A DNA stretch of 44,365 nucleotides from Mesaphorura yosii (taxonomy: Eukaryota; Arthropoda; Collembola; Poduromorpha; Tullbergiidae). Shown piece by piece: positions 10,101 to 35,712 of this stretch. The notes below the pieces were generated by a model that saw nothing but the letters and a program-made list of their open reading frames with translations, was not told the DNA's origin and ran no database searches. Both the position numbers and the translations under genes were made by a program. The stretch is taken from the NCBI GenBank assembly GCA_009869945.1, contig WIXG01000517.1, positions 1 through 44,365 on the forward strand, read 5' to 3'. Each line of letters opens with the position of its first letter. The stretch's first letter is position 1.

Positions 10101-13100
10101 CATTCTCATTCCCGACTGGTGTGATTTATCGGAGCGTAGCCGTCGCCATCGCCGCATCAGTGTGAATGAATTGGTGTCTAAATATAAATCTTGGCACCTG
10201 CACAGTAACAAGTTTTTTCGCCTTGTTTTGTATTGCACAACACGCGCGTTCATTTTTGCGATGCGATGCTACGATGGGATTTATTTTGGTAAAAATTTTG
10301 CATCCCAAGAATTAATTCCTGGAAAAGAGATAACATGCACGAACCAAGAACACAGAGTATTTAAAAATAGCGTGCAAGCCTTTCACCTTCTGAAAGAAAC
10401 AATCTTGGAATGGAAGCAAAGTCTTTCTTGAGTAATGAGAATCACATGGCGATGACGATGGCGTAATGAGTTCATTCCCAGCGAGGAAGAGCATCGAGTG
10501 TCTAACAGAATTTCTCGGGAATTCTTGCGTTGCTTATCGCTCGTCGTCGTGTCAAATCACAGCTTAATTGGGAGTTATCTGCAGTTGTTCAGTATTGACT
10601 AAAAAGGCAGAGCTCCAAAGGTCGGATTTCATAACTCTTCGAATTCGAATGCTCGAATTTCTGTAATTTTCTCAACTCGTATTCATTTGCAACAGAATTT
10701 CTCAGCAAAAGAGAGCAGTGCCGTTAAACAATTGGGCATCTCTCTTCAATACGCTAACTCTTGACGTTATTCTTTTTTTGACTGGATAAAGTTTGCACGC
10801 TAGGTCTTAAAAGTACTTGAACTAAAATAGAAACTGAGCTGCCGCTGACGTAATTCGAAAATTTTGGATCCATAAATAGCGCTAACTGATGTCAATTTAT
10901 AGAATTTTATTGCTTGGCACTCAAGAAATGAATCCTACAATGTTTTTCGTGCATTGCACGCTAAACATTCATGATCCTCACGTCATCACTCCTCGCACCA
11001 CGAAATTCGCATATTTGCACTTGCCGCCACGCCATTTGCCTACCTTTGGCGGAGTTAATCCGGAGATAAAAAAAATTCCGAGAGTAAGAACCTTTTGTAA
11101 CAAGTTCCATAATCCATTCGTGCATTTTGCTTACGCAATACGCAAGTAATTATCAATTATCATACAATTTCAGCACCACAATCCGCAACCGTGCCATGCA
11201 TGTTTGTTTAACAAGTATTCTAGTTTTATTCTAGCACCTGTCAAATTCAGCTTCAGCTGTGTTTGCCGTTTGAGTCTGTATTTCTCGTGAAGGCTTAGTC
11301 GTAGAGCCGCAATCAAAGCCAAAGTCACAAGTGGAAAAGTTATGAAATCTGTTTGCAAGTTAATTATAATATGGTCCCAAGTTTTATGTACATATTTGCA
11401 GAATTTTCTTGGAACTCAGCTCAAACGCAAACTGGTCGGTCGTGTTTCGCGTGATTGAGATCACCGAATCAGAGTTCTGAATGCTGTTCATTAACGTCAG
11501 CGTCAACGAGTCAACGCGTACGTACTACAATGTCAAGGGATTATAGTCCTTGTTCGTCCTTCTGCCTTGCCATTCCGGTTATCAGTCATCAACCCACTGC
11601 CACCACAGTCCAATTACAACGAGTATGAAGTGTGAACAAATAGTAAATCTCCCCACTTCAAGTAGCTCTGGCAGTTCTTGGAATTCTGGTAATTAGCTGT
11701 TCTATGTACAGAGATCTGATAAGCTTAACGAGAATGTATGCATATGCAAGATTGTATCTTCTGCAGCTACATCAAGTAATCTCATGAGAGCTTATTAATC
11801 TACACGTCTACTCACTTCATAGGCAGACAGCAAAAAGGCTTCGACTTCATCTGCTTTCTTCTGTGGTGGTGCGGCGGTTTAACGAGAAAAATGCCTTCGT
11901 GCCACGTCAAAGCAATGCAATGCATATGTGACAAGTTGCTGTGATTGTGATTAGTGATTAACCACGCGTTGACTGATTTGCCAGTCTGAATGACGGGTTT
12001 TTCGGTTCTCTCAGGATTCAACCAGCAACAGTTACCCACAACTTCTTGGTTGCAGCCGTTTCTGGTCTCCTTTTGCATTTTTATATTAGCGTTCCATTAA
12101 TAAGTGGACTTCAAGTACAATTCGGACTCGAAAATTAGCCTAATTAGCGAAACTAACCTACCTCATTGCTGCCATTATCCGGTGTGGCCTTGACTAGTCA
12201 TTATCTCTGACGACAAAATTTCCTCGTAACTGTTGACTTAATACATAAACGCATGGTAATGAGGTATAACAATTTCGTTCCATAGTCCAAGCACTTGACT
12301 TCTACAGCACTTTACCCGCGGCATGGCTACGTGTTTAAGTATTTAGATAATTTTAGATGTAATTATATAACATTTTCGCAGGAAAATGACGAATTGATAA
12401 ATTAGCAGACATGTGGCCATGACAAATCACGGATTTCGGAATACAATGTAACACTTGCTTTATGCTTTTCCCGTAGAGAATACTAGATACTACTTGATTA
12501 GAATTTAAGGAAAAATTGCTTATTTCCCATAATTTCTTGACATTTGACTCGTGAATTGGAAGATTTACTGGAATTTTTGCAAGTTCTTGTCAATATTTAA
12601 GAGAGTCTTTGCAGATTTCAATGAAAGGGCTCTCATTATGCTGTTCTTACCAAGAAATCGACGCTCTTTCATCTATCACGCAATGAATACGCACATACGC
12701 GGGAATTGACATTTAGCATGAAAAGAAGTCTAGTCAGTGTTTTCTCTTTTCCATTCCCAATGAGCATAATGACATCGCCATTATTGTGCATGTCAGTTAA
12801 TTCTCAACACGAAAATGATGTATGAATGCCGCACGCAATGATATGAAGTGCAGTGCAATCAATTACCGGGAATTAATCAATGCGCTGAAGAAACTCCAAT
12901 TGTTTACGTAGAATCGTGCAAAACAGGCACACCAGCACAGATTGCCGTGCCTTGTCGTGTCGTGACTGACAGGTACATCATGCAATTATAATTGTAGCAT
13001 ATCATAAATTCCAAACGCCAAGTGCATTTCTGATTGCACTATCTGTGCCCATGAACATTTCATTATTCATGTCTCTCGTCTTCTTTGACGTGCTTTACCT

Positions 13101-13780
13101 GCAAAATTCTTAGAAATCAAACCGTTCGGGATCGCGTTCCTGTATGCCATGCTTGTGCCTGCCATTGCATGAGCATTTAATAATTAACTTGCTTCGTAAA
13201 ACAATACGAAGAAGAACAACAACAATGTATCTTGTATGATCTCAACGTTTCGACTTTCGAGTCGGCAATTGGACTTTAATCGGTTACCTTTGTAGATTTC
13301 TCTTGAATTCATTTCCCTGTGTATGCACACATTTTTTGTACGATGCGATGCGCTATACTCTGAAGCATGTCTTGTTTCTGCTTCTGCTTAACCGCTAATT
13401 CTCAGAATCTTCAGCACAGCAAAGCTGAGTTGCAAAACGCTGTGCTGTTTGTTGCTTGCTGCTGCTACTGGCCTGACTTGTTCACTGATTATGAGAACAA
13501 TACGGCACGGCACAGAACAGGACAATGCGGGATTGTGACGGCCGCCGCGTGCTGTATTCCTCGAACAACATAATTGCATTGTGTATTGTGATTGTGATTG
13601 TCTCTTTGATCTTGTGTCGTGTTTTGTGCTTGTGCAGTTCTGTTCTAGCTAACAGACAGGCAAAGAAAAGGCTGTTTAAGTCTTTAAGCCGTACGTACGC
13701 GTACGCTTGTTTTCATGTTGTGTTGTGGCTTTCTAGTAATCTAGTCCTTTGTTCAATTATGAATTGTTCTTGGAAGCGCA

Positions 13781-13797
13781 AAGCCCAAGCCCAAGCC
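13781..13797 (+). repeat. AAGCCC short tandem repeat
   Basis: Two perfect and one degenerate AAGCCC units in non-coding DNA. Similar words recur near 17176. Confidence 0.6.
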
Positions 13798-14545
13798 AAA
13801 GGCTCATTATGTGTGTTATGTCTTGCATTGTTACGGTAAACAATGCGGGTCAGATGTCAGAGTGCAGTTGTCGACATCAAATTCCACGAAACCCGGCTCG
13901 ACACGGCGTACGTTTACTTTACATGATTTCTCTCAAGGATGCCTACTTGAATTCTGTAACGCCAATACAATTTTTAGGACACGGACTTGAAATCGCGAAG
14001 GGCCTTTTAAAGTTAATACTCAAACGTTTTCGGCGATGAGACTGAGACTGGAGGAATTGACATGCACTTACACTCGTGCGTTAGGCTACAGGTTTCCCGA
14101 TTTTAATTCAGTCGCTCGTGATGCATTGACCCTGTAGCCACGTGCTTATTCAAAAGTTGCGTAGTATTAGTCAGCTAATTATAAGCCAGGCTTTTGTATT
14201 ATCAAAGTTATAATAAAACTGTCAAGTAAATATTGACTACATATCAACTGTGTGCTGAACAAGTCATCGACAAGTGGCTTGGCTGTCGAACAGTACAGTA
14301 CCGAGGAGCGAGGAACAATAAAGGAAAGTGTAAATAGAAAAAGAGTGCAGGGCATGCACAAAGTGGATCAGGATGAAACCAACCACAACCGAAATAATTT
14401 CGCGGAATTCTGTGCCGCACTGGTCGGTCTTGGTGGCTCGTGGTCTCAACTTTTTCTGCGAAAAAGTTTCGCTTCTACGACGCGACCGTTCTGCGGTTTT
14501 CACGCAATATTCATCGTACCTTGTTAAATGAGTCAATTCCAGTGC

Positions 14546-14560
14546 TTGGCTTGGCTTGGC
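14546..14560 (+). repeat. (TTGGC)3 pentamer repeat
   Basis: Three perfect TTGGC units. The same pentamer run recurs at 16056-16070 and, shorter, near 17366, 27611 and 32403. Confidence 0.8.
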
Positions 14561-16055
14561 TCACTGAATTCTAGTCTAGGCTGAGCTGAGACGACCCAAT
14601 TCGCATTCGCGATGAAGTCGCATTCGCAATATCGCAATTCTCCGAAACCTTTGCTTTTAACTTCTGTTTTGAGGTTTCTGATCAAATATTTACAGGCTCT
14701 GTTTCTTTTTCTGTATTTGCCTGGCACTACCAACAAGAATTTCACGGGAAATTGTCAATTTGTAAGCCCAGTCTTTTTATGACATGAGCCCAAACACTTC
14801 AGGTGTGTTCTCTGTTTATGCCTGCTTACTGTTTAACTGTATTCCTGTGCTTTTGCTTGTGCTAATTGCATAACGGGCCAAACTGCATGCGAAACTCTCA
14901 AGTGCTGTACTGAATGAACTTGCATATAAGAATAACACTTGATTGACTTCTGTCTCAATGCGCCGACTGTGACGGACAATGGCCGGTCATCGATTATCAA
15001 TACACCTTTGACCGCTCGGTTTACCAATCGTCATAATTGTCTGTCGCAATTACTGCTAAATTGACCGTTTGTACAACACCAAATTCCTGTGAAAAATGAC
15101 CCCACTTCTTGACCCAGTTAATGCACAGACATAGTAAGGTAAATGTGAATGTTTCGCTTTTACGAGTTACTACTACGACCACGCCGATGAGCCCACCTTC
15201 CTCGTTCTTCCACGAATTACTAAGGAAAATGCCTAACCAAGCTAGTCAAGCTCCCAGCCTTTCCCAATATAAAAATAGTTCCTATTCACCGGAATTTAAT
15301 TACTCAAGCACTCGAGACGGCCTCCGCTTCCTCTGTGTACTTTCTTGGTTCATAGAAGCACTGCGCCTGAAAAAGTTTTCTGTTCGCGAAAGAATTTAAT
15401 TAAGAGAGGCGTGCAGTGTCGCAATCGGTGAGAATCGGCTCGCCAGCTCGTCGAAGGTTCGATTTTATTCGAAATTTGCAATTCCGCCATTCACGAATTG
15501 TGAACTGGGAATTACGATTCGAGGAACGCCGAGAGGGAAGCTAAAGCCTTATGGTGTACGTACGCGTAACCTACACAAGGAAAGAAAAGAATAGAAATAT
15601 TCACCACGTGCTTCTGTTTTTAGTTTTTCTGAGAATAAAGTCGCATCTGCCCGTGGCTCTATAAATTTGGCAGGTATTGATTTTCACGGTCAGCCGCTGG
15701 CCTGGACTCAAGCTACATTGGGTTGTGAACGTGAATCAATAAAAAACTAATAATATAATGATAAACGCTTGGCACGACTCGGCTCGGCTTGGCTGGTTTT
15801 ATTGTCATTGAATTTTGATTTCATTGTCAAACCTGCATTGAATGTTATTGCATTGCCGTCGCCTTGCATTGGGGCAAAGCACAATTCTGAAGGTCACTCG
15901 ATACTCGATTCGCGATACCCATGTATCGTGTTTCGTGTATCGTGTGAACTGCTCCGTTCTGTTTTCTGTTGCGCTGCTCTGCTGTGAATGACATTAAATA
16001 TTCCAAAGCAGTTTGAGATTTCTTAGAACTGGCATGCCCATGCCCATGAACCACA

Positions 16056-16070
16056 TTGGCTTGGCTTGGC
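16056..16070 (+). repeat. (TTGGC)3 pentamer repeat
   Basis: Three perfect TTGGC units, a second locus of the same repeat. A different pentamer run follows within 15 bp. Confidence 0.8.
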
Positions 16071-16081
16071 TTAGCGTGCTG

Positions 16082-16098
16082 CGCTACGCTACGCTACG
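16082..16098 (+). repeat. (CGCTA)3 pentamer repeat
   Basis: Three perfect CGCTA units plus a partial fourth, directly after the TTGGC run. Confidence 0.75.
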
Positions 16099-19000
16099 CC
16101 ACAGTAAAGATTAATTTTATACACAATACGACTTAAGGCTACGACTACGGCAAAGAGAGACAAGAAATTCTTCTCGGAATTAATTTAAAAGTTTCGACCA
16201 CGCTCACGCACTCACTCATCTCCTCGACCAGCAATTTATGTTGCACAAGTTTCAAGTTTGAACTCTAAATTCTCATTCTCAGCTTGCTTCGTTGCTTGCT
16301 CATCTCAGAAGTTTATGCACATAAACAGTAAACCATAAAGGCAAAGTTTTAATAGTTTAAAGCATGGGATGAGCACTCTGTTAATGCTGAGACAGAATCT
16401 CATTCATCATTCATCACTCACCACCACAGCGCAGCACAGCGCATTTCGTAATTGAATTAGGAAGAATTGAAGTGCCTCATGCAACTTTAATGTCAGGAGG
16501 TCAGGTTTATTTCAATAGAAAATCCACGCCACAAACACGACGGTATCGCGCGCATGAACCGAGTCCACGTGCTACATGCTACAGGATATGACAGCTACAA
16601 ATTATTTATAAGATACGGCATTCCGCGTCCACGTCTTACAATTAATATTTGATTGATTCCAGGTACCGTTTCCAAGAACAGGCCAGAAAATGTAGCGCGA
16701 GTCCGAGTCCATGAAATAGTGCAATTAGCAGTAAATACGATTGATATTCGAGAATGACATTAATTTACCATGCTTGCACGATTGCCTTCTCAGAATTCTA
16801 ATCGAAGAATCAACGAACAGCAGAGACGAAGCATAGCAAGCATAGAGCACGTTTCGTTGGAGCCGAATTAATCCTTTTCGGGGGAAACGTGCTTCACGCC
16901 AAGTCTAAAGCGTAAGAACTAAGCTCGGGCTTCACGGCTCCAATACCCAGTTCCAGGCAAAGGCAACAGGCAAGCCTGACTACTTCGTTTCGCTTGAAAG
17001 GTCAGTTATCCATCCATTACTTTACCTTACCTTACCTCGCTCGTTGTTGTGAGCTCGGCTCGTCCTACGGAGATTGCCAGTTTCGCAAGTCATAAATTCA
17101 CTATTCGCAAGTAAATCGCCTCCACGCTTGTTTTGCTAAGCCGAACGACGCTCGTGCATCGAAAAGTAGACTCAAAGCCCAAGCCAAAGTCAAAGCCCGA
17201 GAATGGCTTCATTTATTTTTAATCCAACTTTCCGAGTATTTGTGCTCACTTCTCATTTTCGCTGCTGCTCAGCGTGCCACGCGTCCGCGTCGCGAGAAAT
17301 CTGATTATTATTAAACATGAGATTCCATGAAAATTGACCTTAGCTGCATGGAATGGCAAGGCATGGCTTGGCTTGGCTCTACCCAGAATAATGTGATGCC
17401 TGTGATTGCCACTCCCAGTACCAAGTAAAAGTAATATAATTGTATTTACACTTGGGCTTGAACTCATTTGGATTCCTATTATGCTCGATAATTCAATTCA
17501 TGCTCTCGTATTCATGTTTCACGTGAATTCTGAACTCTGAGTTCGTGCAATGAAAGGCAAGAAAGACACCCAAAAAAGGGAACGATGATATGATACAGAT
17601 TCTTGGGAAAAGTGAGAAAGCTCTCTCCTCCACGTGATTCTGAGTTCTGAGCCGTGCTGTGCTGTGCAAGAAATTCGTGGAAAGGATACCCAGCGCAGGA
17701 AACTTCATAAACTCCATCTCGGTTTCGTAAGTTGCTTCCTATTCTTCTCTTCTCAGTACGCGCTATTGACTCCATCCGCCTTGCTCTTATTCTGTTCCAT
17801 CATCACAAGACAGACGCGGGCGGCGAGCAGGCAGCAGGCAGGCATGGCACAGAAACCCGAGAGAGAAGCTTTTAAGATATTTCAGAGAAGAAGTCTTGTT
17901 AAAATTCAGATTCCGAGAAATTCTTCTTCCTTACTGCTTTCTTATTACTTCTTGCTTCTTACTGCCGTGCTGTGTGGGCATTCACATTAGCGTTGGCATT
18001 TGGGGATTCAAGGAACTGGTCGCTAAGAATTCAGTGCAGCTCAGTGCAAACGCAAGCGTAAGCGTAAGAAGTGGATTATCCCGTAAAGCAAAGACTTTTC
18101 TTCGTATTACTCTACTCAGTCGGAAGTCGTAATCTTCATGGCCGTGCCCATGCTATGCCTTAACAAAATACGGAATACGGAAAATAGGCCAATGTACGAA
18201 TGTGAATGTATGCTCACGCTATGGGGAATTTGAGACCAGACTCGGAGCCGTGTTCATGCTCGTTCTATATTGTTTACGACTTGTCAATTGAAGCCTGGGA
18301 CAATATCGACTCGAACTGGACTGGACTCGATCCTTGCTCGACGCTCGCACGTCGTATTTATGTTCAGATACAAGTTCCCCTGCCACTGGGCTATTCTCGC
18401 CTGTCTGGCCCAAATTCCAAAGAATTCAATGAAACAAGAAACAACAACGAATAAGTGACTGCGACTGGTACCCTGCCTGCCGTAAATTGAAATTTCTTGT
18501 AAATACTACGAATACGGCCGGCCACGCGAACGCGAGGGGAATTGCCCAAAACGAAGACGGAAATTAATTTTTCTGGAAAGACGCAGAAAAGGTCAGCATT
18601 TAAATGGAAATGTACGATCCTTGTCACCTAAAATCCACGATGACGCCAGTACTCGAACCTAGTACAATTTCGTTATTTTTCTGTTGCGTTGTAAGAATTT
18701 CTCTGAGTCAGAAGCACATTCAGGCACGCTGAGATACGAATAAGAAGAGCGCTCGCTGTCGCAGTGGGTATTTGTCACGCACTAGCTCGCTGTTGCTGCG
18801 TTGAGAATCCAATCCTTAAATGTCAAGGTTACGGTGAAATCCTTCGGAGGTGTATTGACTTGGGCACAAATGCCCAAGGTCAATAAATATCTGGTCAAGG
18901 CAAAACAATACGCGCACGTACGCATGCAGAGACTCAACTTACGATTTCCACAGAATTCCAAATGACAAATGACAATTTCCATTTTCACATTTGAAATTCA

Positions 19001-19636
19001 AAGTTGGCAAAGCAAAGGTTTGAACACATGTCGGAATTTCTAATGAAGCACGAAGCATAAGCAGCTAGAATCAAGAATTAATATTAAATTTATGGGCAAA
19101 TAGCAAAATAGCAAGCCAATTACCATGAATCGGAAACAAATTCTTGTGAATTCAGGATTCTTGAGCTGTACGGGTCACAAGAGTTCAGTTCAACAGTCAA
19201 GTGCTTTCACACTCATATACGGCCGATTGGCGATTACGATTACGCAATTGTAATTTGGAGTCCGGGCAGTGGCACACACTGCCGTATTTCCCACGAATTA
19301 TTCATTCGGTCAATATATAATGCCAATGTAAATAACGCGTTGCAATGTAACATGGCACTTGGCATATGAAGTTGTCCTGTCGTGCACGTGTTTGGCAAAT
19401 GCATAAATTCGCTGTAAAATTTCAAGTGCAGCTGGATGTATTGGCAATGGCATTCGGGCATTAGCATTACCAATGGCAAGATTTTCAAGCTACGGCTACG
19501 GGAAAGCTCCGATTAGATATCGCAATACGTATAATTGTGAATTGATTGCGAATAGCGAATTCATGCTAAATATGGAAAATGATAATGACAATGGCAAGTG
19601 TTAACATCATCAGTCATCTGAGTTCACCGCTACATA

Positions 19637-19654
19637 CTATGACTATGACTATGA
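19637..19654 (+). repeat. (CTATGA)3 hexamer repeat
   Basis: Three perfect CTATGA units in non-coding DNA. Confidence 0.8.
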
Positions 19655-20457
19655 CAAGCCAGAGCAAAGCAGATAAAATTAGTTGGAAATCTCAAGCTTA
19701 GCTACACCTACAACGTTGAGTGAGTTGAGTGAGTACAACTACAACTAAGCGGGATGGTATCATGTAGGACTCATACGGTAGGAAAGCCCGCAGTATAAAG
19801 TACACAACGTAGTACAGTTTTTGCTCATTCAGGCTTTGGCCGTCCTCGAGTCGAGTCCGCGCACAACAAGCAGGTTGAGACTTGAGATTCGCGAACACAT
19901 TCGCAAATCGCGTCATCCTCGTACTCGTACGTACACACTTTAAAGTGATCTCTTTTGGTAGTTTCATTAATTTATTACCCGTATTACTACTCAGTTAATT
20001 GTTCGCAGTGCTTAATTCAGTGTCCATTCCTTGCATTCGTACGTATTTGCAATTTGGCAATTTGCATTCTCGTCCCGTTGTGGTTTTATCGGCGTGATTC
20101 TTGGAATTTGGAAGCAACAAGTCACATTCAACGCGATAAAGAATTACAATTGCACGTGCGTTGTGGTCAGCGAGGATTTCTGTGAGTTGGACCGGACTGG
20201 ACCTGAATTTGACGTAAATTCTTAGTATTTACAGCGCAGAGGCGGAGCAGACAGTCAGTGAACAACTTGATACCAATACCAAAGAGCAAAAACCGGTTTA
20301 GTTTACATTATACGCAGTCGCCCTTCGCAAATCGCAAAAACAAGAACGCAAGTACCTCGTAGTAAGTTTGTTCCACTCTTTATTATCAAAGTCACGACCA
20401 GGATCAAGATCAGCATTCAACTTTCAGCACTGGTCACCTCAAAGTCTTACGTTCAAG

Positions 20458-20552
20458 GTACGTCATCTCAATTTATCTTATCTTCAACGCAGTCTGCAGT
20501 GCTGCGGTATTCTTCGACGTTGTAAGCTAACAACTTTTATCTCATTCACCAG
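20458..20552 (+). other. candidate 5' UTR intron of the SOCS gene
   Basis: A good donor (CAAG/GTACGT) at 20458 and an acceptor with pyrimidine-rich lead (ATTCACCAG) ending at 20552 bound a 95-nt segment, the typical intron size in this window. It lies about 285 nt before the start codon. Transcript evidence is needed; weak. Confidence 0.25.
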
Positions 20553-20837
20553 AACGTCAGACAGACAGTGAAAACGCCAGAACAGAATTATTTATCAAAG
20601 CCAAAGCGGAAGCAACACTTCCAAGAATCGCCGTCATAAGTCATAACGCAGCACACAGAGGAAGAGAAAAAGAGACACGGCACACATTCTAGATTCAGAG
20701 CCAGCGCTAACGTCAACAAACAAGCTAGAAGCACAGGTCCCAGTTCGTGCTCACAAGCAATTAAGTCAAATCTGCCTGAATACGGAAACGGACTCCCCGT
20801 GTCTTCGCCGTCGCCCTGTCTATCGTGAATCGTGTTT

Positions 20838-23800: not shown

Positions 23801-25018
23801 TTGACTTATTGACACAATGACACAGTGCCGTGCTGCTGTCGGCTCACTGCTTGCTTGTAGTCACTGTCCCACCGAATTCTTTAACGTTTGCGTTGGCGTA
23901 GGTTATGTACACGCTACGCACATCACGTCAGCCCGCGTGTGTGCATTTGTGCACGCAATTAACACATGGCGAGGCCGGCCAACCCTCTGATAAGCGAAAT
24001 TCGCTGTAAATTAAGCTACAGCGTCAAGTATCGAATTTTGCATGTGCCGCTGCTGCTATGCTCACGTACACAAGCAGAAAGCAGAATAGAATTGCATTTT
24101 CAGGCTTGTTATTAGCGAGGCGAAGCTAATTGGACTTTCTGCATCACGCTTGCAACTCGCAAAAGTACATTCAGTGGAAACCTTGCGATTGCTTGAGAAT
24201 TGAATTGCCTGCCTGTCTGCGTTTCCACGAACAGTTAGGTACCAACCGGCGTGAGACGCGCTGACGAGCCCACATTTTCAGTTTTCGTAGGGATTAACGA
24301 GTAAACGAGCTGTTGCTGCGACTGCATTATTGATGAGTCAGAGGATTAGAAGAAGTGTTCAATGGTCACGCCAGCGCAGCAATTGTCGGGCTTCGTACCG
24401 GATGCTGTTGCTGCACAAAGTATGAAAAGCATTTTTCCGACTTCACTCGCTACTCTTCTTATCAAGTACGCTAAATTTTGATGTGTCATTACCATCATCA
24501 TTACCTGAGTGTTCAGCGTTAATGCTTACCATAAATCGCGAATTGCAGCAACGGCAATGAATGATTCATTCATAAAATACAGCGTAAGCTTATTCGCCAT
24601 GCTAAAAATAGGACATGGCACACAAGACACAACCTTGACTAATGCGCGAAGGTGTCGAAGTCGACTGTCATGATTTTATTGTGCTAGCTTCGTAAATCTC
24701 AAATGTAATTATTTGATTATTATTTATTCGTGGCTCGTGATCATTTCATCATCACCATCGAGTTCTCAGTAGGCCGTGCAACGGGAATGTCAATCTAATC
24801 ATAAATCTTGTCTTTGTGCGTTACAGGTGTGGGTAGATTCTCACGGACTCACATTCTCGCCAATACACCTGAAGGAACCAAAGAAGAAATTCGTGCCGTC
24901 ACTGCAACACGCGTCACGATTAGTTATTAACCGCAATCTGGACCGCATTGACATCAGCCGGCGCGATGTGCCGCCGAGCATTCAAAACTATCTGAATAAG
25001 TATCCGCATACTGTGTAG
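20838..25018 (+). CDS. SOCS2/CIS-like suppressor of cytokine signalling (SH2 + SOCS box)
   Basis: Adaptor that docks on phosphotyrosines through SH2 and recruits an elongin B/C-cullin E3 ligase through the SOCS box, damping JAK/STAT signalling. Exons 20838-21737, 22003-22260 and 24827-25018, all phase 0, give 449 residues. An in-frame TGA at 20826 bounds the start; the second ATG at 20865 has the better context and may be the true start. Residues 1-290 are low complexity: a Cys group (CSCKC...CPDC), a PPPLPPPP run, and Ser/Thr/Ala and Asp tracts. SH2 begins at SGWYFGKM and has the FLLRD phosphotyrosine-binding Arg at about residue 317. The SOCS box is recognisable from PSLQHASRLVINR to the C-terminal YLNKYPHTV, which resembles SOCS2/CIS rather than SOCS5-7. 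Intron 2 is 2.6 kb, the longest in the window. Confidence 0.9.
22261..24826 (+). other. long second intron of the SOCS gene
   Basis: GTGAGG donor and TTACAG acceptor. No embedded gene is seen on either strand. It has one TTCYNRGAA site (22642) and several HSE-like TTCnnGAA pairs. Base composition and simple-sequence texture match the flanking gene-poor DNA. Confidence 0.7.
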
Positions 25019-25296
25019 TAGCGTCTACAGCGTGTATTGACGAATTTTATTGCCACCTACCACAACATCCACATCCTCAGCACACCAAGTCAAATCTCCT
25101 GTAAACCACAAACTGTATAATTAATATATTTGTGTGTAAGACGCAGCAATTTATTACCTTGTATTCTTCTTTTACTGATGCATTTTGAATTGATATTGAT
25201 ATTTGTCAGTCAATTGATATACTTTTTTGTCAGCTTTCTTGTACTTGTGACTTGAGCGTTTTGTTTGCAAGCTAAGGCTACGTGGAAAATGAACCA

Positions 25297-25302
25297 AATA
25301 AA
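25297..25302 (+). terminator. possible poly(A) signal of the SOCS gene
   Basis: AATAAA about 280 nt after the stop. Confidence 0.45.
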
Positions 25303-26621
25303 TTCCTATTTTTGTACCGAGAAATGCCGACGACGTTGATAAAAGAGAAGCCATTCACTTATTTGTCTTCTTGTGCTGAGGGTTGAGAAGTTTCTTGGAA
25401 AATAGCGTTGAAGAAAAGCTAGATGCAGTGATAAAATCGAATGGGAGGCTTCTCCCTTGCTGCAGCTGATCACTGATTCTTATTCTGGTTGAGAATACTG
25501 ATGACTAGTTCTTCATGTCAACAGATTTCTCACCACTGTGACTTCAGTCGAAAATATTTTGATTGAGTCGTTGCCTTACATGCCTGTCAATCCAATTCAC
25601 GCCATTCTACTGCGGGTATATATAGTTTAAATGAGTCCTTTGCTAGTTTGCAGCTGGGCCGAAGAAACAGAAAGAAAGTTGATTATGTTATTAGTGTTTC
25701 ATTGGAATTCTCAGTTTACAAATCACGCCTGTGTTCTTGCATTTCAAATTCAAGCCTGCCTGCCTGCATTGAAGTTTAGATTCGGCTGACTTCACTTTCA
25801 TTAGAAATGATTACTTCACAGCCACCACAACACAGACCAAAGAATGTAGCTTAGCTTACAGCTTTGCTTCATCATTACCATCATCAGTTTAATTACAGGC
25901 CGATGAATAGCGGAACAGTCATACTATTCGTAGCCTGCGTATTCTTCTCATGCCTCTGCCTGCCGTCTTGTTTTGATTCTGGTAATTGCTGTTGTGGTTT
26001 TCTTTGAATTTCTTCGTGCTCCTCAAAAGTTTTCTGCTTCAATCAATCTCCCATTCTTCTTCTTTGTACAGTGGGGTGAATTTCCATTGAAATACCAGTC
26101 CCAGTTGATAGTGGATGGTGACGCGGTGGTAATTAATCAATTTCAAGTGAATTGGCGATGCTTCGTTGTTTGCTTTGACTGTGTAACACATTTTGTCGAT
26201 GTCGATTTGGTATTCAACGCCGTGCCATGCTGAAGCATGCGATTAAAGTTAAAACGAAAACACAAGCCAAAGCCACCTTAAGCAAGCCGAGCTTAAACAT
26301 AGTTAGCATGCTTAGGTTTGGCTAAGCGAGTGAGTTAGCTCGTAGTTTCTCCACGTTCTGTCTTTAATTTTGGTCGATTTAGTCGATTTTGTCAACTTTT
26401 TGGTCAAAGAAGAATAAGCCAAGTGGAAATTCGTTGGAATTATTGGACGAGTGAAACCAAGCGTCAATTTCACAAAAGGCACGACGCGTGTTGCGCGCAA
26501 GAAAAGATAAAGAGCAATATTGAATTTTGGTCCGTGAGCTCTTTAGCCACTTCAGCATGAAAAAGACACACTCGAGTCCATTCCAATTCCACTCACCCAT
26601 CCAAAGTAATACAGGCCAGGT

Positions 26622-26638
26622 GAAGGCAGGCAGGCAGG
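26622..26638 (+). repeat. (GGCA)n short tandem repeat
   Basis: Consecutive GGCA units in non-coding DNA. Shorter GGCA runs recur elsewhere, e.g. near 32013. Confidence 0.6.
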
Positions 26639-29600
26639 ATTTCGACCAATTCGTATGGATTTGAATCAAATAATACCGACATTCCATATCTGTCATTTCC
26701 CGGCAACCCGTGCCTGAGTGCCTGTGCTCAAAGCTTAATGCCAATGCCCATAGCCTCTGCTCTGCTCATAATTCCAGGAACCTTTTCACCGTTCAGGCAT
26801 ACATCACATAAAATGCTAATCAGAGAATGATTTCTTGGAATTTGTTCCGTATGACGCTTAATGCGAATACGAATATCTCTGTGTGCCTGCAATGCCCGAT
26901 AGCACGGCACAGCGAGATGACTATTATTTCCATTGTGTGCCATCGCCATCGCAAACATTGCCCCACTTTGATGAAGCGGTTCATACAAAAACTCAAACTC
27001 TTTTCATGTCCGCTTTGATGAGGAGTCTGAGCATTCAGCCGAGAGCCGTTAGTCCAAGCGTGCAGTCAAGAGATTACGATTTCCACGGAATTCGGGCAGA
27101 CACAGAATCGCTTCTTTAATTGAATAGAAATTGGATCCTGTGCCATTATTAGGAATTCCAGTGAACTGAACTGAACAGAATCTGAACTGGGTCATTAAAA
27201 GACAACTTGACTTGGCTTCGACTGGGCCTGGAGTCTCGAGATTGTCGTGATCGAGACGATTCTCCCGTGTTCCGTGTCCCCACGGGATGAAATTCTGAAG
27301 AGCGCAGTAAGCCGTAAGCTGTAAGCTGGTATTGCCATTGCATTTAGAGAAAGTGAGAGAAGAGAAGATAAATAATGAGATTTCTATTTCTGCGTATATT
27401 TCCACATTTCACCGACTCGCTCCGCATTTTCATTCGCTCAGCACCACACAGCACAGCTCTGAAGAGTTCGCATTCGCGATTCCTGGAATCGGAATCGCAT
27501 AGAGCACAACCAACACATGACATGGCAAGGCATTGCCATGTAAAGCGAAGAGAAGAACTCGTTCTTTCGTTCCTTGTTCGATGCTTTTGCTATTGCTTTT
27601 ACTCTCCTGGCTTGGCTTGTCTGTTGGTTCTTTTGGCCTGGCTCAGTGAATCGTGTCGTGAGTCTCTGGCTGGCCCGACTTTAACGCACTGGCAGCACTG
27701 GCAATTATGTTATTTTGCGTCAGAATATTTTCTCGCGAAAATCAATCTTTTTGCCACGGACTGTCATCACATCTGTTGGGCTTGTGCTTTGTTCAAGTGC
27801 CGTGTACTCAGGTAGTCATGAAAGAATATGACGACTGACTTTCTTTGCACATACTTTCACCTTGTCTGCTTTGTAGGAATTACAATTATTGCGAATTTCA
27901 ATTCGCGAATGCAAACTCGCAAGCGAATTTCGTCTGAATCTTCAAACCACATTCGACAAAGCACAAAAAAGTGAAACTTTTAATGGAAAAAGTATTTGCT
28001 TTTACTTTATTCTCAACTCGATAAATTTTCTAATTTAAAATTTCTTGGGAAATTTGGAATTCGCCTCCCGGCGCGTGGCGCGACGGCGCCAAGTGGTGTG
28101 GCATGCTGCATTTGAAGCAGTTCGCAGTACGGGGAAAGGAAAGCAGAAATGCGATTTTGACTCAATTTGCAATCCAATTTGTGCACCGGCAACTTTTCAT
28201 GCAAAGCGGGTTAATTCGAGGAATTACGGGCCGAGGGCAAAGCATAGTAGCACGCTCAAAAATTGCATTAGCTCAATTTTTCTCTGGAACTTACTTGAAC
28301 GTGGAAAAACGCAAGCATACGAACTCTTGTGGTACCAAGTTTCAATTATTGCCATTTCTTCGAGTCTTGCGTGGCGTGCATTCGCAATTCGCGTGGGCAA
28401 GCAGGAGGGAAAGGGAAATGTTAAAGACCAAGGAAAGAAAGATAATTATAAATCTTATCCGTGCCATGCCGTGTATTCGTCTGTTTTCTGGAATTATGAA
28501 ACACGACACTTCGTATGCTTCGTGTTCGTTTCATTACGCGTCGGTTCTTTGAAATGGAAGTGGAAGTCAATTATTATTGTCAATACGAACGCACGGAGAA
28601 GCGCGCGTTCGTAGCTTACGCGACATTTATTTGTGTCGTCGAGTGGAGCATCTCAGATTTCTGAGCCTTCTATTCACATTTCGTGGAAGTGTTTTTGATG
28701 TCCCGCCGTTTTTGAAGTCCCACTCATATCATCAAGCAAATAGACAAATCCAAATGGTGAATCTATTCTTGTCTTCCACGAAAATCAATCACAACTCACA
28801 AATTCACATTCATGAATGTTTACTCCTCCGAACAACGCAATGGCAGGTGCAGGAATCGAATTGAAATTCAAATTAAAGCAAACGCTGACTGACAAAGCAT
28901 TGAACAACCACAATTTTGAGTTACTTTCAAATATAGGACGTATTTGAAGAGGAAGAAGTTCATGGTTCATCCTTTGCGTGTGTTCCAGTGAAATTTCTCC
29001 CCTCGCTTCCTATTTCGAGTGTTCATTGGAAATCCGGCGGCTCGGCTTGGAGGAAGAGTGGATCTGACAACTGAAGCTTTGATTCTGGTGAAGTTCGTCT
29101 ATTCCATTGAATCATTGAACGCGAACGAGAATGGCGAATGGCAATGACGGCCACTCAAACTCCAAACTTACTTTGCTGATTGCTGATGTCAACACTTAAG
29201 TTCCAGCTCCGTCTTTATTATTCTTGGAAGAATGTCAAAGTCCCGAATTCGAAGTGAGACTCAAATTCAAACCAACAGGAAGAAAAACACGCGGAAACTG
29301 GAAAATTCAGGTTTGACAAAAGTCAGACCGAGACGAGACATCAAACTTGTACAGTTAATTCTTCGCTATTCGCTGGAAATTTATGCTCCTCTTTGTGCTT
29401 TGTCAGATGCCAATTTTGTTTGCTGGAAAATTTGAAAGCGAATGCGGGCATAAATTACTGAGAAGACGCGATTTTTCCTGCCCTGCTTGAAGCGACTGGT
29501 TTTTCTTTACGATTGAATTATAATCCGATTCTCTGTTCAGTGCAGAACCACGTCACAATAGAAAAATTAATCATCATCTCATCTTTCGCTCGCCTGTCTG

Positions 29601-32600
29601 CCGGGGCTGGCTGAGAAGAAAGCTGACAATGCAGCACACCTGCCAGAAAAAAACTGCCGGGTGAATTATGAAAAGTTTCCGTATTTTCTTTCGTTATTAA
29701 AGCACTGGGAAATGAAATTGATTTTCCAGGAATTCGGGTTTATGCGGTTAAAAATGAAATTGGCTTTCTTTTCTTTCGACTTCGGCTGTGCGATACGGTG
29801 CCCGTCTTCTGATGCCCTTTTTGACCGCGACGTAGATTTCATTCGCCACATCGCCGCTACGCCAGGACCACAAAAATTGTTTTGGCTCAGCTCGGCACGG
29901 GTACATTGACTTCAGTTTGAGGTCATTTGATAAATTCACAAATCCTAAAATAACACAGAAACCTCAACAAGTTTTGCTGAGCGAGAGTATTCAAACCGTT
30001 GTGTCAATTTTGCAGGAGCAAAAGTTAATTGAATTTGTTCTATTTCACAATGTTACAGTCCTCGTGCTCAATTAATTTCTTGGAACGAACTTTAACACAG
30101 AGGAGCCAGAGCCAGATCAAAACAAAACAAGCAAAATGCAAAAAGGGCCGACTATGAATGCAGTAAAAGCAGAGATGGAGATAAGAATCAGAATCATGGT
30201 CATCCATCTTCATCTCCATTTCAGTGCTACGCGGACTGCGAACACGAGAACGCCTGCCTTCACCTTGGCTGACTGAAGCTTTACGCAAAGGTAGCGAAGG
30301 TATCGTGATAAATGATGAAGCAATTCTTGGAAAGATAGAACCATGTCATTGCAATGACATACGCAGATGCAGAACACAGTCCATTAAATAAATGTCATGG
30401 ACGCGAGAGGCGAGGCAAGATGCAAGATGCGAGATTCCCAAGAAAGAAGGTAATCAGAACTCTTCTTCTCCTGTGTATTCTGCGTACTGCGTGAGTTCTT
30501 TTGTAAGCAAATTGAAATTGAAACAGTTTAGGGATTGCTGTTCTGAGAAAATCTTGAGCATTCATAATGCGAGCATGATGATCACGATTTGGAGTACGCC
30601 GAATGCAACGCCGCAGTGTTGTATGGTGATGAGTTTTGAGCCTTAATGCACGAGTAGGAGCACGAGTGGAATGCGAGTCCCTGAAAGTGTTTAAAATATT
30701 TAAAGTGTTTACTTCTTACAGAGGCACGATTCTCGTGAATTCATAATTCGTGATCATGCCTAATTTCTGAGGGCTGAGAACTGGGACTCGGGGCCTTCAG
30801 TGTCGGAACTTGCTGCATTGTGGACCGAATCTTGGCCTGTACGTTATTCGTTGACGTCTTCATCTTTTAGTCTCTTCTGCGTGGGGCACGACGACTCGAG
30901 GGCAGCGAAATGTCAAGGCATCGTGCAAACTACGATTCCTGAAACTGATTTAAAGACCGGGCAGAATTTCTGGAACTCAACAATCTTGAAACGGTGGCCG
31001 TGCAGTTGAATCTGTGTTGAGGTGCGTGTCAGTCATCAGCGTTGTATATTGTATCATTTACCTAATGGATTTGCGATACTTGCTTTGATAAGATGGATTA
31101 AGAATTGAAGCGAGCTAAGTTGCTTATTAGCTTTTATTGCTGCTGCTGGGTGGTGCATTTCTTCGAAATTCGACTGCTTTCAGGTCGAATCGAGAGTTGA
31201 TCCGGCCAGATTTCTGATTGAAATCCTCCGCACGTGCATTTCTCATTAGCTGCATGTCGAACACGATACACGATAACACGATGCGAGAGTAACAAGCTGA
31301 GAACACAATTAAGACACGCATACAACAATCATAACGATTATCATTGTTAATCTTTAATTTCTCACTAAGATCTCACAATCTTGTTTCTGAGTATTGCTGT
31401 ATTGCTTGCGATTGCGCGCATAGTAAGTTTGCCACCAACAAACCACACACCAACCACTTGTGCATGATAACATACAATCAGTGCCAGTGCTTAGTGTTTA
31501 AGAAATTAAAGCCAATTCTGGCGAACTAGCAGCGAAAAGTGTCATGTCATCATCACAGCTCGCACCACCAGCGCAGTGGCAGGCAGGAGTGCGGGGCCCG
31601 CAACAATGCGTAATTATGATGAATTCTTTATCCTCATTATGCGCGTGTTTATGAGCTCAGCTCAGTTTCAGTTTCCAGGTAAAGAGTAAAGAGGCTTTTG
31701 TTGCGAATGCGACCTAACCTAAAGCGTTGGTTCGTTTACCACTTACCACCCATTAAACATTCTTTGCAGCTGATCTTCCCTTCGTCTTCTTCCATTTCAC
31801 AATTCACAAGAACAATTACACGACACTTTTTGCATGCATGATGCATATAGCGTAATTCATATTCGTATTTTGTAAGCATAAGTCCATTTACGCGTACTTT
31901 GTTAGTACTTTGGTGTTCTTTATCTCGAATCCTAGAATTCTTGGAGATTTTCCTTTCTTCGCGTTCCTCGAGCGTTTGAATAATGGATTTTACCTGGGAA
32001 TTCTGGAGGGAAGGCAGGCAGGCCCTTCCTTTTACTACCCGTAAGCGCAACTAATGCATAATGGGTCCGTAAAGCGTCTAACATCTTCCCGCATCAATTT
32101 TAATCCAAATTCTGATGAGTCATAATCCAGACAGCAGGCAGGCTGGCTCGGTCGGACCTCAGAAGAATCCGACTTCAGGATAAAGGCTTGCCTTGCTTTG
32201 CCATTATACTGGCAGCCGTGGCCGTGCTGTGTTTCGGCGAATTACTTCAATTTCATCTTTCATTATTCGAAACTGTGAAAGTCATTGTTGTAGTGCAGTT
32301 CATTTACTGCACGGCGTTAACAGCAAAAGGCATCAGGTAGGGGAACACAAGCACAAAAACAAACGCAGCACCCCTTCAATTCTTCGAACTCGGCTGTGGT
32401 ATGGCTTGGCTTGGCGGCTTGAATTGGGCTCTTTGGAATTCTTGGAAATTGTGATACCAGACACTGAGGGAGAGGCTTGGAAAAAGATAAGCGTTTGTAC
32501 CTGATTTTCCTTTTGGGTTTGTTCTGATCCTATACGAAACAAAACGCAATCTTTACTTTTTACCCGCATTTCACTGGAGTTTGTAAATCCAGTCTACGGC

Positions 32601-32622
32601 ATGAAGGACTTTGCTAAAGCGC

Positions 32623-32799
32623 CCTAAACCCAGGGTGTGAAAAAATCATGATTTTTTCGAAAAAATCCGATAATTGTCGGATAGTTATCAATGATAATTA
32701 TCAATCGATAATTATCCGACTAGCCCTCAACATTAGGGGGTCGGATAATTATCAATGATAATTATCAATGGATAATTATCAGCGCACCCTGCCTAAACC
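32623..32799. repeat. 8-bp target-site duplication CCTAAACC flanking a MITE
   Basis: CCTAAACC occurs directly before (32623-32630) and directly after (32792-32799) the element. An exact 8-bp duplication is the signature of hAT-superfamily transposition. Confidence 0.85.
32631..32791. mobile_element. 161-bp hAT-type MITE (non-autonomous)
   Basis: Begins CAGGGTGTG and ends CGCACCCTG, giving short imperfect terminal inverted repeats (CAGGGTGYG), and is flanked by a perfect 8-bp duplication. It encodes nothing. Inside are a 20-bp perfect palindrome (32639-32658) and two direct copies of a 41-bp unit (32676-32716 and 32740-32780, two differences). Each unit is built from GATAATTATC, itself a palindrome. 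The size, termini and duplication fit a MITE mobilised by a hAT transposase encoded elsewhere. The exact duplication suggests a fairly recent insertion. Confidence 0.85.
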
Positions 32800-34640
32800 T
32801 AAGACTTAAGCGTCTAATTTAAGCCAAGTGAAGGAGAGATGATGCATAGAAGAATTGAAGGGTGATTCATTCGCACTTGTATGTTATAAACGTGTGTGAA
32901 CCAACACAAAGTCAATTCATTTGATAAGCCATCAAATCAAAGTCAAAGCAATTTCATGGAAATCGGCATCCTGCTGGTGACTGGCTTGCCTTTTACTTTA
33001 TAGCTTTCTCCTTCTCCACATTGCTCTAAAACTCTTGATTGTATTCAGCCTCAGCCAAGCCACAACAGATGCCCAAACGCAATACATCGGCAGCCTAAGG
33101 CTAAACATGGTGGTAAACAGTTCCTAAGAACGCAATCAAATTCACAGTGAATGTGGTTTCAGCTTTCAAGTGTTAACTAACTCGCATGGCTTGAATAAAC
33201 AGAGCAACAGTGGCTTCAATGAATTCTAGTCTGAAATCTGACCACACACTCAATACAAATACAAGCAGAAATTATGCACGAGGCTGGTGGCACATCTGTC
33301 CAAATAATCCAAAATATGAGCGTGCTCCGGTGAATCATGGCTTCATAAATACACACAATGGACTTGGAACTGGAATTGGGTGGTAAACTTGCTTGTCTTG
33401 TCAGAGCAGATGGTTCAACCAATTTGTCACTCTGAGCATGCCATGCATCCATGCATATTTGATGAAGACAATGAAAATGCTGTTCTGCTACTACTGCTTA
33501 ATGGACATGGTATCCATCCTGGATTCGTGGAACTCGGTGTTTGTATTTGGAATTTGGGGTCCGAGAGACATACGACTCAAACGAGAGCGTGAGGCGTGAA
33601 TTGTGAATGAGGCTGACTGAAGCATTACGCATGTCTACTCATGCTAATCTAGCTCGTGTGATGCTGGAGGGATGAAAGTGCGAAATGAAATTCACACTAC
33701 GACCGGATAAATGCAACAAAACAACACAAAACACACCTTGGATTCCTGGAATTGTTAATGGAACAATTTTGTACTCACACTCAGGCCGTCAGGCCAAATA
33801 TACTTCGTGCGTGAATGTAATAAAAGGTATGCGTATGCGCAATGGCACGGCAGAAGGGTGGAGTGTGGATTAATTGACATTATCCGGTACGAATGAAACG
33901 AGAACGAGGAGTTTACTCGTAAACGTTCACAATACGAAGAAATCCGTGAAAAAATGTAATTCATTTCCGTTCTGTTCCCTGCACTAGCATTTGAATGTAC
34001 AGGAATCTTAAATTCCTTTACAATCTGCGCTTATTTTCGTAATTGCAGTGTGCCAGGCATTAAATTGAGTAGCTTGTGATTCTTATTCTTTAGGCAGTGT
34101 TCCAATTACTCAGTTACACCTGTACTAAACTGATCCAAGTTAAAGATTCGTGGAAAAGCGAGCGACAGCGACTGACGTTACACTTAAATTCTTAGTCAAT
34201 TGGGACTGGTAACTGGCACTGGCATCCGGTTACTCCTCACACCACACTAAGCTTTGACCACTGCCACACCATTTCGTTTTTTCACCGTATCGTAATCGTA
34301 ATTCATTCACAATACGCAGAATCGATACAAAAAGCGTGTAGGGCTCTTTGCCTTTGTCTCTTCATGAGGAGAACGCTATTAATCGTGTGCCTACCTGAGA
34401 TAAAGACGTAGGATTAATTAAGAGCGAAACGCCTCATTCTTTTAGCGCAATCACTTTTCCTTTGAACCACCTCATTTATTATGGCCGTGGCGGTGCAGCG
34501 CGTCGCGGCGCGGCGGCTTCATTGCGTATGGGACAAATAAGAGCAGGCTCAGACCAAGACCGAGACACTTTCTAATTAAACGATTCAGAGAAGAAGAAAA
34601 GAGGAATGCAGTGCAGGCGCAGACAGGCAAACAAATTCAA

Positions 34641-34841
34641 ATGAAACCATCTGCGATCTTCGAGCTGCAGCAGGCACAGGTGGCGAACATGACGAGAATA
34701 TACAACGGAGCGCAGTCCAGCATCAGCTACGGCGTGCCGCTGCAGAAATTCAAAGAAGACAGCACTTTAAATTGTGAAACGTTCCACGAATTTCTATTAC
34801 GGATTCGTTCAGATGAAAGAATTAGGCGCGGCGGGGACTGA
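34641..34841 (+). CDS. candidate small ORF or exon of unknown function
   Basis: A 66-codon ATG frame inside a frame that is open from at least 34503. The codons from 34641 to about 34763 prefer G or C in third position, unlike surrounding non-coding DNA, and the peptide (FELQQAQVANMTRIYNG...) is not low complexity. A strong GTAAGT donor lies at 34848, 6 nt after the stop, so this may be a 5' exon of an alternative transcript. I do not recognise the product, and nothing downstream clearly continues it. Confidence 0.25.
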   Translation: MKPSAIFELQQAQVANMTRIYNGAQSSISYGVPLQKFKEDSTLNCETFHEFLLRIRSDERIRRGGD

Positions 34842-35348
34842 AGCCGTAAGTAATTTATGTAAAGCGCCTCGCCTCGCCTGGCGTTTGAGGCTGTGCTGTG
34901 CTGTCTCTTGTCTTTTCATCTTTCATGTTGATTACGATTACGGAGAATTAATTTACCTTTCCTTTCCTGGTATGCAATGAACTGAACCAATTCTTGGAAT
35001 ACACTCCGTGATGAAGGAAACTGGCTGGAGGCTCATTGCACGTACCAGCAAATAAACTTCGCCGGAATGCGGCAGCGGCAGATGAAAGAGAATTCTGATT
35101 TATTCATATTCTAAATCTGCGGATTCTGGAATATTTCGTCGAATTTTCATTTTAATCAAGGCTCAAGACCCGGTTGAGCCCAACATTCATCGACATATTG
35201 GTAAAAGAATAACTTAAAAGCTCAGAATTATATCACATGTAATTAAGCTAAGATAAATTAGGACAAGATATCACAATAAATAAAAGTCGTCACCAGAAGC
35301 AGCAGTTGATCGTGATCAGGGCGAGGCGGGGGCAAAGAGCGTGGCGAT

Positions 35349-35712
35349 TTACTTTCCGTAGTGGCCACCTCCGTGATGGTTTCCTCCATGGTGGTTTCCT
35401 CCATGGTGGTTGCCGCCATGATGGTTGCCGCCGCCTGGATAATATCCACCGCCACCACCTCCATGATGGTTGCCGCCACCTGGATAATATCCGCCACCTC
35501 CGTGATGGTTGCCACCATGACCGCCCCCGTACCGATTTCCTCCAGCAGGCTCTGCGAATATGTCAAATCAAAAATGTACTCTTTGAACTCCTTGAACTTT
35601 GAATACTCTCAACTCAATGGAAAATCTAAGCAATCTTAAACTTACCTGGAAGTGCGAAAGCTGCTCCTAGGATGCAGATTGCGATGAAGAGGATAATCTT
35701 GGTGAAATCCAT
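35349..35712 (-). CDS. secreted Gly/His-rich peptide
   Basis: Two exons on the minus strand, 35712-35646 and 35551-35349 (phase 1), encode 89 residues. Residues 1-21 form a classical signal peptide (MDFTKIILFIAICILGAAFA). The mature part is almost entirely Gly, His and Asn with two GYYPGGGNHH units and tandem NHHGG repeats. It contains no Cys, so it is not a disulfide peptide. Composition resembles Gly/His-rich antifungal or cuticle-associated peptides of arthropods (holotricin/tenecin-3 style) and should bind Zn/Cu/Ni ions, but no family assignment is possible. A TATA box lies about 84 bp upstream of the ATG. The next gene, AGPS, is divergent, 1.5 kb away. Confidence 0.8.

Follow-up and report, generated by a model that had tools for sequence, protein, structure and literature searches.

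A dense field of STAT-type palindromes around a SOCS2-like gene in the springtail Mesaphorura yosii

In this report, we describe a contig from the springtail Mesaphorura yosii (GenBank assembly GCA_009869945.1, contig WIXG01000517.1, here C517), analysed over its whole length of 44,365 bases, which we call the window, and belonging to a genome of 93.0 Mb in 1,127 contigs. The window contains a SOCS2-like gene and, on both sides of it as well as within it, a field of palindromes of the STAT type. Two forms are considered, TTCN3GAA with a three-base spacer (3n) and TTCN4GAA with a four-base spacer (4n), together with TTCYNRGAA, the YNR class of 3n sites. The interval in question had originally been picked for its YNR sites by a sequence-only reading, a choice that the P values for the excess carry with them; unless otherwise given, interval figures refer to positions 10316-35007. 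The gene and the field are laid out as follows.

20838..21737, + strand: SOCS coding exon 1, with the first ATG of the frame as assumed start and a GT donor; it ends ...GWYFGKMDWQ, the start of the SH2 domain
22003..22260, + strand: SOCS coding exon 2, remainder of the SH2 domain, with AG/GT borders
24827..25018, + strand: SOCS coding exon 3, with the SOCS box (24893-24997, a six-frame SOCS_box match) and the stop codon
11282..35135, no strand: STAT-site field of 108 3n and 4n palindromes (20.4 expected), the best-scoring segment against the genome-sample rate
11282..20837, no strand: upstream portion of the field; the ATG is preceded by 46 of the 108 sites counted in 10316-35007
25019..35135, no strand: downstream portion of the field; the stop codon is followed by 52 of the 108 sites counted in 10316-35007
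10316..34999, no strand: interval of the sequence-only reading, with 27 TTCYNRGAA sites starting at 10316, 11406, 11675, 13107, 13399, 13767, 15627, 16020, 16171, 16670, 16787, 17911, 20098, 20619, 22642, 25392, 26772, 26832, 27480, 29221, 29724, 30077, 30324, 30541, 32439, 33743 and 34991

The three coding exons join into a stop-free model of 449 amino acids, on which Pfam places an SH2 domain (292-373) and a SOCS box (409-443), both above curated cut-offs. Among solved structures, from a list without a CIS chain, the model matches SOCS2 best (84 bits), followed by SOCS3 (54), SOCS1 (47), SOCS6 (42) and SOCS4 (35). Judged by these matches, the gene is SOCS2-like, closest to SOCS2 among solved structures, and the earlier claim that a SOCS2/CIS-like gene is the only one in the interval agrees with the Pfam and structural results, no other gene being recognised there. 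A Pfam search of ten of the longer open frames in the interval for hidden genes gave nothing above curated cut-off, and Rfam gave no match in the window at gathering scores. An ortholog search returned six protein relatives, of which the closest three show identities from 33 to 49%. Five of these proteins sit on contigs of 1.3-3.2 kb (up to 3.2 kb for the closest three), and one comes from the wasp Copidosoma.

The excess of palindromes is real and stronger than the sequence-only reading had stated. That reading had put about 27 YNR sites in about 25 kb, with about two expected from composition and one word accounting for 13. We count 29 YNR sites in the window, 27 of which start within 10316-34991, and TTCTTGGAA/TTCCAAGAA, the commonest word and a classical STAT5 site, does supply 13 of them; TTCCACGAA/TTCGTGGAA supplies 9 further 3n sites. 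In 300 dinucleotide-preserving shuffles of the interval, YNR sites number 2.0 on average (maximum 6), and the 58 observed 3n sites compare with a mean of 11.1 (maximum 23) and the 50 observed 4n sites with a mean of 10.9 (maximum 20). The neighbouring spacings of two and five bases, at 13 and 7 sites, stay near their shuffle values of about 11 each.

The genome itself gives the same picture. Whole-genome counts of 12,111 YNR, 44,553 3n and 41,918 4n sites lead to expectations of 3.2, 11.8 and 11.1 for the interval, corresponding to 8.4-, 4.9- and 4.5-fold excesses, with Poisson P values of about 7e-22 for 3n and about 1e-17 for 4n. In a genome sample of 20 ten-kb stretches from 20 contigs (200 kb), picked blind and none farther than 41 kb from the start of its contig, 3n sites average 4.75 per 10 kb (maximum 8) and 4n sites 3.80 (maximum 9), compared with 23.5 and 20.3 in the interval, so that an equal density elsewhere, the outcome that would have made the field a compositional by-product, was not encountered in those stretches. 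Masking open frames of at least 80 amino acids leaves the sample no richer, at 4.9 (3n) and 4.6 (4n) per 10 kb. Spans of equal length on contig C1 (1-822,650) hold at most 9 YNR sites among the 100 places listed, the densest of these lying at about 401.7-424.8 kb with 9 TTCYNRGAA. The flanks of the window fall back as well: its first 10.3 kb hold 9 3n and 4 4n sites and its last 9.4 kb hold 5 and 4, similar to other spacings there. The interval thus shows what defines a homotypic cluster of STAT sites, a local 3n/4n excess over both the genome and the other spacings. The sequence-only reading had also seen that other TTCN3GAA and TTCN4GAA words were raised, and they are (31 non-YNR 3n sites against 8.6 expected, 50 4n sites against 11.1), but its treatment of them as a local background does not hold, as they belong to the signal.

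When the TTC and GAA half-sites are kept and each gap from 0 to 15 is counted (10316-34999), gap 3 occurs 57 times, gap 4 occurs 50 times, and every other gap between 6 and 22 times. Relative to the genome sample, spacings 0-2 and 5-15 range from 0.5 to 1.8 times background, with the top at 10 and 11; spacing 2, the heat-shock-factor type, is not raised (13 versus 13). When all words made of a 3-mer, a gap of 0-12 and a second 3-mer were compared with the 200-kb sample, TTC-N3-GAA ranked first and TTC-N4-GAA second (P 7e-22 and 2e-20), and several of the next-ranked words overlap these two.

Furthermore, the sites share a preference outside the palindrome. At two flanking positions C is shunned around both 3n sites (19 of 114 flanks versus 74 of 190 in genome copies, P 4e-5) and 4n sites (14 of 100 versus 71 of 152, P 4e-8), and spacings 2, 5, 6 and 7, each with few sites in the window, show no such avoidance. 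A flank preference common to the two spacings would be the expected trace of one protein family reading both. The 3n centre additionally prefers YNR, with 27 of 58 sites compared with 18 of 95 in the genome sample (P 4e-4).

The field runs from about 9.5 kb 5' to about 10 kb 3' of the SOCS coding region at about 4.5 sites per kb (mean spacing about 221 bp), roughly fivefold the genome average. Of the 108 sites, 10 fall inside the gene span. Coding sequence is largely spared: three of the five largest intersite gaps cover the three coding exons, whose 1,350 bases hold one site against 6.0 expected. Close neighbours are scarce as well (7 gaps below 50 bp versus 18.8 simulated, P 0.001), so the many palindrome pairs within tens of base pairs that mark STAT tetramer sites are not seen here. 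Overall gap variation is only slightly low (P 0.06), and no nucleosome-like period was seen: when distances up to 800 bp are sorted into 25-bp bins, none is conspicuous after the first two.

Repeats account for at most a few sites. The repeat search, at the settings used, found none longer than 41 nt. An 11-bp tandem array in the first SOCS intron (21888-21923, AATGAAATTCC, 3.3 copies) holds 4n sites, at 21895 and 21906; the GGCTTGGCT and GATAATTATC repeats contain no 3n or 4n palindrome.

Several other short words were observed in the same DNA. AGCCAAGCC/GGCTTGGCT occurs 11 times against about one expected (14276-17379, 27609, 32403, 33053), including three pairs of copies offset by 5 bp, and GATAATTATC units at 32676-32780 form two copies of 41 nt that are nearly identical and lie 64 bp apart. 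GAAATTC/GAATTTC is found 28 times in 10316-35007 against 7.7; 14 of the 28 overlap 3n or 4n palindromes. TACnnnGAA/TTCnnnGTA occurs 40 times against about 12 and, among spacings 0-8, is raised at spacing 3 only (at the P<0.001 mark); its first centre base is most commonly G (15 of 40), unlike that of the TTC sites, and it is possibly a weak STAT class or the site of another factor. Just right of the field, at 35368-35517, lie short tandem repeats of 15-30 bp (CCTCCATGATGGTTT-like).

The genes beyond the field are a kinase plus Ribonuc_2-5A gene that looks IRE1-like by eye, two HSP20 genes, a chitin-binding protein and an AGPS-like FAD enzyme, the last having its best match, at 64% identity, in a protein of the springtail Orchesella dallaii. 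This one protein fits a collembolan origin of the contig; a COX1 search gave no match. The field ends short of the HSP20-type genes on its left and of the AGPS-like gene on its right.

Candidate readers of the sites are encoded elsewhere in the genome. Two STAT proteins were assembled by eye. The one on contig C391 matches STAT_alpha, STAT_bind and SH2, scores 552 bits to STAT5B and has a C-terminal GYVKP, and so combines the DNA-binding domain, SH2 domain and C-terminal tyrosine expected of a STAT. The second (C7:4656-8057) is divergent, with 195 bits to STAT5B and a Y-x-K-P tyrosine near its end. As assembled, the genome encodes two STAT5-like proteins. The 3.2-3.4 kb around the STAT matches hold 2-3 3n and 2-5 4n sites, with no field at that scale.

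Other SOCS loci provide a further comparison. At least ten SOCS boxes occur in the genome, including that of the field gene, two others having a nearby SH2 match. On contig C77, a SOCS gene (SOCS4/5 type by eye) has 8 3n and 6 4n sites in a 10-kb stretch that takes in its exons and upstream DNA. A 3.5-kb part of this (L044 6201-9700, exons and the DNA just 5'), picked after the sites had been seen, holds 7 3n and 4 4n sites, with other spacings at 0-3, and 4 of these 11 sites lie in or beside coding exons. The C77 SOCS gene thus has a small cluster specific to 3n and 4n. The other seven SOCS-box loci, at 2.9-3.1 kb each, have 1-5 3n and 0-1 4n sites. Separately, a small YNR cluster at C1:143501-149500 is without 3n/4n specificity (6 and 3 sites, other spacings reaching 7).

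On the strength of the spacing specificity, the shared flank preference, the SOCS2-like gene and the two STAT5-like proteins, we favor a STAT reading: the interval, with the SOCS2-like gene inside it, is probably a homotypic STAT response region of very large size that drives SOCS feedback. The earlier suggestion of a large distributed STAT-response landscape is supported as sequence by these features together with the site density, its activity being the predicted part. Activated STAT dimers, of the canonical STAT5-like protein and possibly of the second, divergent one, would bind the dispersed 3n and 4n palindromes; with many single sites bound across the 24 kb, transcription of SOCS would rise by degrees, and the protein made from it would then damp the pathway, closing a negative feedback loop. 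Many single sites presumably add up in this scheme, because few of them form close, tetramer-type pairs. A more speculative and on balance doubtful extension is that the locus works as an analogue counter, in which about 100 mostly single, mutually spaced sites, divided about evenly between two spacer classes, would be read by two STAT5-like proteins (possibly one taking 3n and the other 4n), SOCS output integrating total STAT activity in place of one compact enhancer.

Several observations weigh against the STAT response reading. Masking long open frames (at least 80 amino acids) lowers the interval's 3n density to 16.1 per 10 kb, below the unmasked value (4n stands at 21.2), and the 4n centre has no YNNR preference (10 of 50 versus 22 of 76, P 0.3). 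Spacings 10 and 11 are themselves somewhat raised (1.6 and 1.8 times), as are the words AGCCAAGCC, GATAATTATC, TACnnnGAA and GAAATTC. Some sites are not independent, namely the two 4n sites of the tandem array and those of a 25-nt inverted pair that carries a 4n site on each arm. The JAK-type FERM_F2 match is barely over its cut-off (26.3 versus 26 bits). Moreover, a SOCS gene on contig C136 (SOCS6/7 type by eye) shows no excess, with 5 3n and 1 4n site in a stretch that covers 10 kb 5' of, and part of, the SH2 exon and contains other coding exons too; a STAT field is therefore not general to SOCS genes here.

Among the alternatives, another DNA-binding protein with the same palindrome could be the selecting factor. 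The sequence cannot name the protein, and zinc fingers of the BCL6/Ken type are repressors that overlap STAT sites in this way. We nevertheless regard this as quite unlikely: SOCS genes are classical STAT targets, and the flat count at spacing 2 speaks against heat-shock factor. The joint spacing of 3 and 4, with nothing at 2 or 5, is that used in a Drosophila study to look for STAT92E sites, since both spacings work in vivo (PMC2877871).

It is similarly improbable that the field consists of STAT enhancers serving another transcript, be it an unannotated RNA or a flanking gene, besides or instead of SOCS. According to the same study, Drosophila STAT enhancers may work across distances of tens of kb, even with another gene in between (PMC2877871), and the downstream half of the field is 10 kb long; against this, the SOCS gene lies roughly in the middle of the field, which ends before the HSP20-type and AGPS-like genes.

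A sink, in which the sites bind STAT but chiefly buffer free STAT without driving the gene, would suit the similar site density on both sides of the gene, the lack of a promoter focus and the scarcity of close pairs. We consider it very unlikely, as some 100 sites are few beside the 86,471 3n and 4n words of the genome, so that titration would be small, and it would be chance that they surround a SOCS gene.

Finally, a compositional or repeat by-product is close to negligible: the slightly low guanine-cytosine content (0.43 versus 0.45 in the genome sample), the other raised words and the short tandem array with its two 4n sites point that way, but shuffles give only 2, 11 and 11 YNR, 3n and 4n sites, other spacings of the same half-sites remain at 0.5-1.8 times background, no repeat above 41 nt was found, the flank preference appears at spacings 3 and 4 only of the six tested, and the background with open frames masked is also contrary.

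If the STAT response reading is true, JAK/STAT feedback strength would be readable from sequence, and the locus would offer a direct test of how dispersed sites add up. Additionally, genomes of arthropods without experimental data could be screened for STAT targets by the 3n/4n excess over other spacings.

Accounts of STAT target loci usually depict compact enhancers that contain few gamma-activated sequence (GAS) sites, and no description of a comparable field at a SOCS gene was found in the open-licence literature searched. The feedback of vertebrate STAT5 on CISH and SOCS2 is alike in that a SOCS2-like gene is flanked by GAS sites and a STAT5-like protein is present; the vertebrate loci have a handful of promoter or enhancer GAS sites, unlike the 24-kb field. 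Drosophila Socs36E, of the SOCS4/5 type, is similarly a SOCS gene at STAT-type sites; judged by eye, the C77 gene, with no more than a small cluster, is its likely counterpart here. Direct control of Socs36E by STAT92E is reported, shown by site mutation in cell lines (PMC2877871).

A further difference from the vertebrate feedback loop is that four-base spacers are given as the STAT6 motif (PMC3564941). For Drosophila STAT92E, 3n and 4n sites both work in vivo and both were searched for (PMC2877871). That study also gives 85 sites in 144 kb of the vvl region (70 expected by its authors), 53 sites in 70 kb of the trh locus and 5 in a 700-bp fragment of dome, and states that non-conserved clustered STAT sites contribute, as do conserved ones (PMC2877871). 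On these figures, the springtail field is like vvl, trh and dome in placing 3n and 4n sites within non-coding DNA. It differs from vvl and trh in being six to eight times denser over 24 kb, a comparison of raw densities between species of different base composition, and from the local cluster at dome in spreading 108 sites through 24 kb. What is distinctive of the springtail locus is that 3n and 4n sites alike are abundant through most of the intergenic DNA, and that the gene they surround is the feedback inhibitor.

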